From: Microbacterium sp. Leaf151
GTDB taxonomy: Bacteria; Actinomycetota; Actinomycetes; Actinomycetales; Microbacteriaceae
Direction of reading: 5' to 3'
DNA: 64,000 bases
Assembly (NCBI RefSeq): GCF_001424225.1
Contig: NZ_LMOR01000002.1
Span: 310,001-374,000 of the forward strand
Made by a program: the position numbers and the translations under genes. The notes under the pieces were generated by a model. It searched no databases. It was not told the DNA's origin and saw nothing but the letters and a program-made list of their open reading frames with translations. Below, one piece after another: positions 1,168 through 54,642 of this stretch. Each line of letters starts with the position of its first letter. The first letter of the stretch is position 1.

Positions 1168-2709
1168 ATGAGCGATCTCACCCGCCTGACCGCAGCCGAG
1201 CTGGCCGCGAAGCTCTCGGCATCCGAGGTGTCCAGCGTCGAAGCCACGCAGGCGCATCTCGACCGCATCGCCGCCGTCGACGGTGACGTCCACGCCTTCC
1301 TCCACGTCAGTGACCACGCGCTCGACGTCGCGCGCGACATCGACCGCCGCCGCGCCGCCGGTGAGCCGCTGCACGAGCTGGCCGGTGTTCCCCTGGCGGT
1401 GAAAGACGTCCTGGTCACCACCGACATGCCCTCCACGAGCGGATCGAAGATCCTCGAGGGCTACATGTCGCCCTACGACGCCACTGTCGTTGCGCGCTCG
1501 CGCGCTGCGGGCCTGGTTCCGCTGGGCAAGACCAACATGGACGAGTTCGCGATGGGCTCCTCCACCGAGTTCTCGGCATACGGCCCCACCCGGAACCCGT
1601 GGGATCTCGACCGCATCCCCGGAGGCTCCGGCGGTGGGTCGGCCGCGGCCGTCGCCGCTTTCGAGGCGCCGCTCGCCCTCGGCTCCGACACCGGCGGCTC
1701 GATCCGCCAGCCTGCGCACGTCACCGGCACGGTGGGCGTGAAGCCGACCTACGGCGGAGTGAGCCGGTACGGCGCCATCGCGCTGGCATCCAGCCTCGAT
1801 CAGGTCGGGCCGGTCACCCGCACCGTGCTCGACGCGGGACTGCTGCACGACGTCATCGGCGGACACGACGCGAACGACTCGACCTCGCTCTCTGACGCGT
1901 GGCCGTCGTTCGCCGCGGCCGCCCGCGAGGGTGCGACGGGTCAGGTGCTGAAGGGACTCAGGGTCGGCGTCGTCCGCGAGCTCGACGGCAGCGGCTTCCA
2001 GTCGGGTGTCACCGCGTCGTTCCGTGCGGCGCTGTCGGCGATGGAGGCACAGGGGGCCGAGATCGTCGAGATCAGCGCGCCGCACTTCGAATACGGCGTG
2101 GCCGCCTACTACTTGATCCTCCCCGCCGAGGCGTCGAGCAATCTCGCGAAGTTCGACTCCGTGCGCTTCGGCATGCGTGTGAACCCGCGGGGCGCGGCCA
2201 CCGTCGAGAACGTCATGGCCGCGACCCGCGACGCCGGCTTCGGCCCCGAGGTCAAGCGACGCATCATCCTCGGCACCTACGCCCTGTCGGCCGGCTACTA
2301 CGACGCCTATTACGGCAGCGCGCAGAAGGTGCGCACGCTCATCCAGCAGGACTTCGACGCGGCCTTCGGCCAGGTCGACGTCATCGCGACCCCGTCGGCA
2401 CCGACCACGGCGTTCCGCATCGGCGAGAAGATCGACGACCCGCTGCAGATGTACCTGAACGACATCACGACGATCCCGGCGAACCTCGCGGGAGTCCCGG
2501 GCATCTCCATCCCCAGCGGCCTCGCCGAAGAAGACGGTCTGCCCGTTGGCATCCAATTCCTCGCCCCCGCCCGCGAAGACGCCCGTCTGTACCGTGTCGG
2601 CGCGGCGCTCGAAGCGCTGCTGGTCGACCAATGGGGCGGACCGCTGCTGGATCGTGCCCCCTCTCTCACCCTTCGACAGGCTCAGGGACCGAAGGCAGGA
2701 TTGATCTGA
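1168..2709 (+). CDS. gatA: Asp-tRNA(Asn)/Glu-tRNA(Gln) amidotransferase subunit A
   Basis: Glutaminase subunit that releases ammonia from glutamine for the kinase/amidase site in GatB. The amidase-signature triad is intact and at the textbook positions: Lys79 (AVKDVL), cis-Ser154 in the GGSGGGS loop and nucleophile Ser178 in [10 protein letters not shown]. The ATG at 1168 is preferred over an in-frame GTG at 1135 because AAGGAG (1153-1158) is ten bases before it. 513 residues. The last codons (LRQAQGP and following) are encoded by a copy of an intergenic repeat at 2669-2690, so the C-terminus looks extended or replaced. The stop TGA overlaps the gatB ATG (TGATG), implying coupled translation. 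Confidence 0.96.
2671..2690 (+). repeat. REP-like repeat copy inside gatA 3' end
   Basis: CTTCGACAGGCTCAGGGACC, the same core as the palindromic element at 54594-54642 and, degenerate, at 5821-5840. Here it is read as the gatA C-terminal codons LRQAQGP. A mobile-type repeat within an essential gene's coding end is unusual. Confidence 0.7.
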
Positions 2710-4226
2710 TGGCCAAAGACGCACTCATGGACTTCGACGAGGCGCTCGAGCTCTTCGAACCCGTCCTCGGCTTCGAGGTGCACGTCGAGTTGAACACCGC
2801 CACCAAGATGTTCTCGGCGGCACCCAACCCGGCCAACGAGGCCAACCACGGCGCAGAGCCCAACACGCTCGTCGCCCCCGTCGACATGGGACTCCCGGGT
2901 GCCCTCCCGGTGGTCAACCAGGAGGCGATCCGCTCCTCGATCAGCCTCGGCCTCGCCCTCGGCTGCTCGATCGCTCCGTCGAGCCGCTTCTCGCGGAAGA
3001 ACTACTTCTACCCCGACCTCGGGAAGAACTACCAGATCTCCCAGTACGACGAGCCGATCGCCTTCGAGGGCTCGGTCGACGTCGAACTCGCCGACGGGAC
3101 GATCGTGACGATCCCGATCGAACGGGCGCACATGGAGGAGGACGCGGGAAAGCTCACCCACATGGGAGGCTCGACCGGTCGCATCCAGGGTGCGGAGTAT
3201 TCGCTGGTCGACTACAACCGCGCCGGAGTCCCCCTCGTCGAGATCGTCACCAAGCCCATCTTCGGTGCCGAGCACTCGGCTCCCGACCTGGCGAAGGCCT
3301 ATGTCGCGACCATCCGCGACATCGTCCGCGGACTCGGCATCTCGGAGGCGAAGCTCGAGCGCGGCAACCTGCGCTGTGACGCGAACGTGTCGCTGCGCCC
3401 CCGCGGTCAGGAGAAGCTGGGCACCCGCACCGAGACGAAGAACGTCAACTCGATGCGCTCGGTCGAGAGAGCGGTGCGTTACGAGATCCAGCGGCAGGCC
3501 GCGATCCTCGCCAAGGGCGGCACGATCACGCAGGAGACGCGGCACTGGCACGAGGACACCGGGCGCACCTCGCCCGGCCGTCCCAAGTCGGATGCCGACG
3601 ACTACCGCTACTTCCCCGAGCCTGATCTGCTGCCCGTGGTCCCCGCGCCGGCGCTCATCGAAGAGCTGCGCGCAGCTCTCCCCGAGCCGCCGGCCACTCG
3701 CCGTCGCCGTCTGAAGGCCGAATGGGGCTTCACCGACCTGGAGTTCCAGGACGTCGCGAACGGTGGACTGCTCGACGCCGTCGCCGAGACCGTCGCGGCG
3801 GGTGCCGCCCCCGCGGCCGCTCGAAAGTGGTGGACCGGTGAGATCACCCGCGTCGCCAACACCCAGGAGCGCGACGCCGCCGACCTCGTGTCGCCCGGCA
3901 ACGTCGCCGCGCTCCAGAAGCTCGTCGACGCGGGAACCCTCACCGACAAGCTCGCGCGCCAGGTGCTCGAGGGCGTCATCGCCGGCGAAGGAACACCGCA
4001 GGAGGTCGTCGACTCGCGCGGTCTCGCGGTCGTCTCCGACGACGGGGCGCTCATCGCGGCGATCGACACCGCCCTCGCCGCTCAGCCCGATGTGCTCGCG
4101 AAGATCCGCGACGGCAAGGTGCAGGCAGCCGGCGCCGTCATCGGCGCGGTCATGAAGGCCATGAGAGGTCAGGCCGACGCCGCGCGTGTACGCGAGCTCG
4201 TGCTGGAGCGCGCCGCCGCGCTGTGA
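2709..4226 (+). CDS. gatB: Asp-tRNA(Asn)/Glu-tRNA(Gln) amidotransferase subunit B
   Basis: Subunit that binds and phosphorylates the mischarged tRNA and carries out transamidation using ammonia channelled from GatA. 505 residues. It shows the GatB/PET112 core (FEVHVELNT near residue 20, [21 protein letters not shown] near 100, the [16 protein letters not shown] segment near 215, [10 protein letters not shown] near 300) followed by the helical YqeY-like tail ([11 protein letters not shown] onward, ending [11 protein letters not shown]). The start overlaps the gatA stop by one base, so expression is coupled to gatA. A strong hairpin follows, ending the operon. Confidence 0.97.
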
Positions 4227-5614: not shown

Positions 5615-5918
5615 GTCGTCGGGACGCACGTGCCCTCCGCCGGGCTCAGGAACCTCGGTGCAGCGGTCTGGTGGGATGAATCCTTCCGATGGGCTCGGGG
5701 GGCTTCGGTACGGGTCCGTGCGGTCCCTTCGCGAGCTCACGAACTCCGATACAGCGGCTTGGCGAGACCGGCCCTCTTGACGCGCTCGGGGCCTCGGCGT
5801 GGCCCGGGTCCGCGCGGCCCCTTCGACGAGGTCGGGGACCCGGCTGGGACGTCGCACGCGCGCGAGCTCGATGCAACGCCCCTTCGACGCGACGGAGCCA
5901 CCCGCTACGGTGGTGCAC
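5615..5918. repeat. Intergenic region with degenerate repeats
   Basis: No gene seen. Two related 22-base segments lie at 5650-5671 and 5741-5762 (GAACCTCGGTGCAGCGGTCT and GAACTCCGATACAGCGGCTT at their cores). A degenerate copy of the CTTCGACAGGCTCAGGGACC element lies at 5821-5840 (16 of 20 bases). It reads as decayed REP-like DNA between dinB and the next promoter. Confidence 0.5.
5906..5911 (+). promoter_or_regulatory. -10 element, leaderless GerW-like gene
   Basis: TACGGT, seven bases before the ATG at 5919. Confidence 0.5.
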
Positions 5919-54427: not shown

Positions 54428-54593
54428 TCGTCTTTCGCAGCATGCGGGCAGTTCGCAGCCTCCGTGCTCTGCGTAGGGTCAGCGGCATCCGGTGCGTTCG
54501 GACTGAGGTTGCGCTGATCGCTGAGGATCTGCGCGGCAGAGTGATCGTGCGGACGCGAACTGCCGGGTGGGTCCGTTCCGCGTCGCCCGGCCC

Positions 54594-54642
54594 CTTCGAC
54601 AGGCTCAGGGACCTCTCGACGAGCGGGCTGAGCCCGTCGAAG
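54594..54642. repeat. REP-like palindrome (CTTCGACAGGCTCAG family)
   Basis: 15-base arms CTTCGACAGGCTCAG (54594-54608) and CTGAGCCCGTCGAAG (54628-54642), one mismatch. It lies in the roughly 300-base gap between convergent ndk and the VKOR-like gene, which otherwise holds only the ndk hairpin. The left arm is the sequence also found inside gatA. Confidence 0.8.

Follow-up and report, generated by a model that had tools for sequence, protein, structure and literature searches.

The window analysed here is a stretch of 64,000 nucleotides from Microbacterium sp. Leaf151. It contains gatA (positions 1168..2709, forward strand), which encodes subunit A of glutamyl-tRNA(Gln) amidotransferase (513 amino acids) and ends with the stop codon TGA at 2707-2709 of the same strand. 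The assignment is based on the list of open reading frames, a TIGR00132 match of 584 bits, which is over the cut-off, and solved GatA chains. The ATG of the next gene, gatB (2709..4226, forward strand; named from the operon and the sequence), overlaps the gatA stop codon in a TGATG junction. The match to the GatA family model extends to about residue 487 (residues 14-484 are aligned to positions 3-463 of the 466 in TIGR00132), and the solved chains end at approximately 494-500, as judged by ungapped extension. Past these ends, from residue 502 onwards, lies a 21-nt repeat insertion, CCTTCGACAGGCTCAGGGACC (2670..2690, forward strand), which reads in frame as LRQAQGP and is delimited by the 21 nt that gatA has over the relative G006 and by exact copies of its core elsewhere. 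The remainder of the gene (2691..2709, forward strand) encodes KAGLI and the stop, and includes the presumed ribosome-binding site of gatB, which is inferred from a GGAGG-like stretch ahead of TGATG in many relatives. A preliminary description of this DNA had located CTTCGACAGGCTCAGGGACC at 2671-2690 inside gatA, with a core shared with a palindrome at 54594, and had read it as LRQAQGP, a few further residues and the junction with gatB; these readings are correct.

The core, CTTCGACAGGCTCAGG, is present in exact form at 2671-2686 and at 54594-54609. Allowing up to 3 mismatches gives 7 matches in the window, where 0.95 are expected; not one of 100 shuffles attained as many. The 25-base palindrome GGTCCCTTCGACAGGCTCAGGGACC, with arms GGTCCC/GGGACC at the sequence level and 0.00 expected matches in the window, fits 54589-54613 with 1 mismatch and 2666-2690 with 3 mismatches, every one of them in the left arm; the gatA copy is without the left arm of the palindrome. 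The intergenic copy, GGCCCCTTCGACAGGCTCAGGGACC (54589..54613, forward strand), comprises the full palindrome, and past a 17-base gap from the 54594 core its inverted partner CTTCGACGGGCTCAGC starts (54627..54642, reverse strand), which the preliminary description did not include. The pair can fold as a single large hairpin, with a fold z of -2.1 against shuffles. The same interval is without a copy in G006 and has one in G058. The single copies fold no better than shuffled sequences (z of 1.15 for the 54594 copy and -0.53 for the gatA copy), and a role of the gatA-copy hairpin as terminator or attenuator is unsupported by the latter value. A further sequence, GGCCCCTTCGACGAGGTCGGGGACC (5816..5840, forward strand), previously described as a degenerate copy at 5821, does retain the outer arms at 5 mismatches in 25 positions, but it does not appear in the scan that allowed up to 3 mismatches, and as it is insecure against chance it is regarded as doubtful.

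Filled and empty gatA tails

The gatA tails could be read in 98 of 99 genomes of the genus, with one genome per species; in the remaining genome, G044, gatA is truncated. G006 is the relative placed nearest on the tree; its GatA is 98% identical over residues 1-501, and its gene is without the repeat and exactly 21 nt (seven codons) shorter, with the tail APSLTNGASL followed by TGATG. The earlier proposals that a repeat landed at the end of gatA and altered its C-terminus, and that the TGATG coupling to gatB was retained nevertheless, are thus borne out; TGATG is present at 107 of 109 gatA/gatB junctions. The same difference of 21 nt is found in four pairs of near relatives (G082/G066, G239/G005, G075/G036 and G301/G037). 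Other pairs differ by 12 nt (G365/G049 and G063/G072) or by 3 nt (G111/G064), which implies that some events went beyond a clean insertion or have been altered since. An intact copy is present in eight of the 98 readable tails (G000, G058, G083, G063, G050, G075, G016 and G082), four more (G045, G018, G084 and G033) resemble decayed copies by eye, and an inverted copy is visible in none of the 98.

When 366 genus genomes were scanned for a pattern with the repeat at 4-30 bases ahead of TGATGGC, 28 genomes gave a match, one each: 20 of the matches lie at gatA/gatB and 8 at other TGATGGC sites. As the window alone holds 8 TGATGGC sites, the gatA junction is strongly over-represented. All 20 gatA copies are in the LRQAQ frame, and, when the GatA C-termini of relatives are compared, all 20 LRQAQ tails carry repeat DNA, that of G045 being slightly decayed. 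No relative was seen with the same C-terminal residues and without the repeat, the case that the preliminary description had named as contrary to its proposal. Two insertion points occur in the window's clade, after APSLT and, in G063, after APS; outside this clade every filled tail has the copy at the same codon, between APx and LRQAQ. The repeat codons CTT, CGA, GCT and GGA account for approximately 2.7, 7.8, 6.1 and 9.1% of their families in 109 gatA cores, and these uncommon codons are retained in the intact copies.

Other changes are observed around this place. G065 and G021 carry another insertion, LLSERSETK, within one codon of it, and are 27 nt longer here than their relatives. This second repeat, beside the same codon in two distant lineages (loci L053 and L074), has 36 identical bases in common between the two; its core, GAGCGAGCGAAGCGAG, occurs in four other fetched loci (reversed control 0), and a 22-base form is absent from the window's own genome at up to 3 mismatches. 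The gatA gene is apparently frameshifted in the assemblies of G007 and G310.

The polarity of the change was assessed from other genera of the family, of which 20 of 59 were fetched. The repeat is absent from all 15 GatA tails that could be read among these 20, from which the insertion is taken to be derived. Five of the outgroup tails (G411, G404, G366, G367 and G395) end in APxLGG plus one or two residues, the form that most empty tails of the genus also take. On a tree of the gatA core and gatB (109 rows, 11 of them added for carrying the repeat, outgroups left out), the intact-copy label changes 15 times, at least 12 of these changes being forced by starred branches; shuffled labels change 17.0 times on average, with 36 of 500 shuffles as low as observed. 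Parsimony on the 109 sequences, with the empty state at the midpoint root, gives 15 gains at equal costs, or 19 when decayed copies are counted as present. When a gain is weighted as three losses, the result is 9 gains with 8 losses (8 and 17, respectively, with decayed copies). Eight filled groups lie outside the window's clade: G301; G290 and G349; G050, G145 and G245; G365; G111; G262; G075 and G294; and G082 and G239. Recombination can inflate such event counts, as the quick tree is built from gatA and gatB themselves. Of the notion that a repeat landed at the end of gatA, the insertion thus stands but not the single event; the place appears to be a recurrent target in the genus. That it has received the repeat several times is well supported by these sequence comparisons.

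Repeat copies in other genes and genomes

In the genome that holds the window, the 16-base core has 10 exact copies (reversed control 0) and 220 copies with up to 3 mismatches (reversed control 82). Besides the 10 exact copies there are 25 with one mismatch, several of them arranged as inverted pairs about 30-55 bases apart; according to a rough gene call by codon usage, 28 of these 35 copies are intergenic. In its many near-identical short copies and their mostly extragenic position, the repeat resembles a REP in the broad sense. Further copies at coding ends, for which the preliminary description suggested a search, are present: four of the 10 exact copies, including that of gatA, occupy gene ends and read as LRQAQGP. 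The other three directly follow an ATGA/GTGA stop/start overlap, so that the N-terminus of the next gene reads M(V)TLRQAQGP; these genes encode a putative cyclase (L002, from Pfam), a xylose-isomerase-like barrel (L003) and the thymidine phosphorylase DeoA (L010). A fifth exact copy, at L005, is close to the 3' end of a called gene and in a frame other than LRQAQGP. The left arm, GGTCC/GGCCC, is absent from the four gene-end copies in the LRQAQGP frame and present in the other six exact copies.

A RTGACCCTTCGACANGCTCAGG form of the repeat was found in 23 of 99 genus genomes (reversed control 0). G063 is rich in copies: 20 regions sampled from one contig hold 75, of which 66 are intergenic, and many form arrays in which they alternate, by eye, with an inverted version that has other arms. 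Spacings in these arrays (L344, L330, L340, L346 and L342) are 19, 23, 55-57, 70-74 and 84-95 bases. Another copy in G063 (L336) is gatA-like, with LRQAQGPVGN ahead of TGATG.

Exact 20-mers were counted in 16 of the 17 genomes of the window's clade (G055 was left out). The counts are 9, 38, 38, 173, 6 and 82 in genomes with a filled gatA, and 20, 54, 1, 8, 1, 0, 0, 0, 1 and 0 in those with an empty one; they are higher with gatA filled (one-sided Mann-Whitney p = 0.007, relatedness ignored). The seven genomes with 0 or 1 copy (G072, G020, G092, G053, G009, G007 and G027) are all gatA-empty, and G006 and G070, with 20 and 54 copies, are nevertheless empty too. An N-terminal repeat in deoA is present in six of the 16 genomes (G000, G310, G058, G016, G070 and G083), as two units in G070 and with a changed first codon in G058 and G083. 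By hand count, G000 and G016 have gained 21 nt, G310 24 nt and G070 45 nt. The deoA family model starts at residue 14, past the repeat. As G000, the window's own genome, has no further start codon between the ATG and the conserved sequence, its deoA repeat is very likely translated. In the isomerase-like gene, for which the starts of 9 of 10 orthologues were read, three of the nine have the repeat, with a length of 21 nt in G000 and of 42 nt in both G058 and G083. At gatA, deoA and the isomerase-like gene alike, an in-frame insertion in an open reading frame is accompanied by empty orthologues, the pattern taken as RPE-like.

A wider scan for RTGACCCTTCGACANGCTCAGGGACC, with one genome per species, gave 94 stretches, of which 80 were fetched, with 82 matches. 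By record name these are 61 Microbacteriaceae-like (our own grouping, which takes in records named Planococcus and Actinomycetales), 3 Propioni-, 12 Treponema, 3 Fibrobacter, and 3 Bacteroidales or Prevotella; the records of the last three groups are labelled MAG or uncultured. Among the Microbacteriaceae-like matches, 39 of 61 start an open reading frame of over 100 residues with window-like codon usage, a codon model that is unfit for the distant phyla. Two Propioni- cases bring these starts to 41, and 28 of the 41 overlap with the stop of a coding sequence upstream; as the pattern itself requires RTG, it favours such cases. The 26-base scan pattern is exact in Treponema, Fibrobacter and Prevotella assemblies (L178, L185, L192, L216, L228, L246 and L251), several of which are from ruminant gut by title. 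At L182, L227, L237 and L211, REP-derived N-termini seem to have been expanded by tandem duplication to AQGPDPTQGPDPTQGP-like tracts, and the proteins downstream of these tracts look otherwise ordinary.

A search for the Y1 transposase domain PF01797 gave no match in G000; by this domain alone, no RAYT is found in the window's own genome. The domain is absent from 98 of the 99 genus genomes; the same search is positive in 5 of 14 control genomes. The only domain among the 99 lies at G041:C15:20980-21342 (L177). No constant GTAG or CGTC tag accompanies the 10 exact copies: GTAG lies within 12 bases of the palindrome in one of them and CGTC or GACG in six, at varying positions, which in a genome rich in G+C may be a chance outcome.

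Interpretation and known systems

The most likely explanation, which we regard as quite probable, is that a 21-nt REP-like unit has been inserted in frame at the 3' end of gatA, recurrently, at a permissive site, without a specific function and moved by an enzyme. The in-frame gain in gatA of a 21-nt unit of the dispersed palindromic repeat is itself shown, and the end of gatA would be hit often in surviving genomes as a permissive place. The insertion would lie past the last folded GatA residues and just upstream of the putative ribosome-binding site of gatB, in an operon without intergenic space. The unit could stay there without harm to gatA or gatB, as its length is a multiple of three and five of its six frames are open. 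It is probably tolerated beyond the folded end of GatA, where extra C-terminal residues would do little harm. The added residues presumably have no specific function, and some enzyme, not found in this analysis, would move the unit. Pure tolerance does not predict the constant LRQAQ frame (20 of 20). Tolerance alone accounts neither for this frame nor for the weaker RNA structure ahead of gatB, described below; both are compatible with a site preference or with selection. An actively mobile 21-nt unit with its own mobilising enzyme might prefer tight stop/start junctions, entering after ATGA or just before the ribosome-binding site of the next gene. Near-identical copies would then be spread over actinobacteria, Treponema, Fibrobacter and Bacteroidales, and gatA/gatB would record its activity; this proposal is doubtful.

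Selection for the insertion, either because it loosens the RNA structure before gatB or because the LRQAQ peptide is useful, would account for the constant frame and the recurrence. In a comparison of 17 filled and 83 empty rows (9 of 109 were dropped), the predicted structure is weaker in the filled ones, with means of -22.9 versus -30.4 kcal/mol from -60 to +30 of gatB (p = 5e-6) and -11.6 versus -13.0 kcal/mol from -30 to +20 (p = 0.037), but relatedness is left out of account in these tests, and the G+C content of the repeat is simply lower than that of the sequence around it. In addition, 346 of 366 genomes have no gatA match and some copies appear to decay, and selection is considered unlikely. 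After a few insertions, homologous recombination might also have carried the gatA tail with its repeat from one species to another; such a spread is partly compatible with the preferred explanation and is entertained as a possibility, on the less probable side. G000, G058, G083, G310 and G016 have further tail features in common apart from the repeat while being interleaved with empty genomes on the tree, and all five are filled at deoA too, along with G070. However, such a spread hardly accounts for the other clades with their different flanks, and the common filling of deoA fits genome-wide repeat activity equally well.

Alternatively, the repeat could have been inserted once at the base of the genus and lost many times by deletion, the empty APxLGG tails being deletion products. 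The common codon of all filled tails outside the window's clade, the four tails that look decayed by eye, and the fact that CTGGGA could remain after an internal deletion are consistent with this scenario. Against it, all 15 readable outgroup tails are empty, 9 gains with 8 losses (8 with 17 when decayed copies are included) remain best at a gain cost of 3, and the insertion point of G063 differs. Moreover, the uncommon codons are kept in the intact copies though four-fold sites of the gatA core differ by 45% on average, a biased comparison in that the intact set was chosen by match (120 of 153 pairs usable). A single old insertion is therefore judged quite improbable. As the repeat sequence is short, a chance resemblance, with LRQAQGP as an ordinary GatA tail, might also be proposed, but the copy numbers are far above expectation and the sequence is present or absent as a 21-nt block. 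The counts in the window, in the genome and with the palindrome model rule out a chance origin, leaving this reading a negligible probability.

With recurrent, tolerated insertion as the preferred explanation, a single site within an essential gene seems to serve as a landing spot for small mobile repeats genus-wide, and closely related species differ in whether it is filled. Such close pairs make REP-like movement without a detected RAYT testable. The case also serves as a warning that annotated protein ends may include repeat-derived residues; no direct medical or ecological importance is indicated.

Five variants of the repeat sequence gave no match in the literature searched. Among the matches listed for the repeat peptide strings only other proteins appear, by title, and among those listed for Microbacterium and REP the repeat is unreported by title or start of abstract; the available part of PMC12306157 contains neither 'rayt' nor 'microbacteri'. 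REPs within open reading frames, ends included, are already described in the accessible part of PMC3733652, as are REPs at about the same site in recB of two Xanthomonas species. Like the GTAG- and CGTC-tagged REPs treated there, the present repeats are short imperfect palindromes, mostly intergenic and often in inverted pairs; unlike those, they have no constant tag, an actinobacterial host, and a genus-wide recurrence at a single place in one gene. Dispersed palindromes, inverted pairs and arrays are also features of REPINs and RAYT systems, as far as the available portions of PMC3116915 and PMC2817692 describe them. In contrast to such RAYT-mobilised elements, PF01797 occurs here in one of 99 genus genomes, which is not the window's own. 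With the Rickettsia palindromic elements (RPE), according to the accessible text of PMC3767692, the repeat shares the entry of a palindromic sequence into open reading frames with the frame intact, RPE residing in solvent-exposed parts. RPE-4, -6 and -7 contain an ATGAC motif, and the possibility of hotspots is raised in the same text. RPE are given there as 100-150 bp, whereas the unit described here has 21 nt and the studied cases lie at gene ends. The kind of element is itself known; new are the gatA hotspot, the absence of PF01797 from 98 of 99 genomes and the lack of a constant GTAG/CGTC tag.
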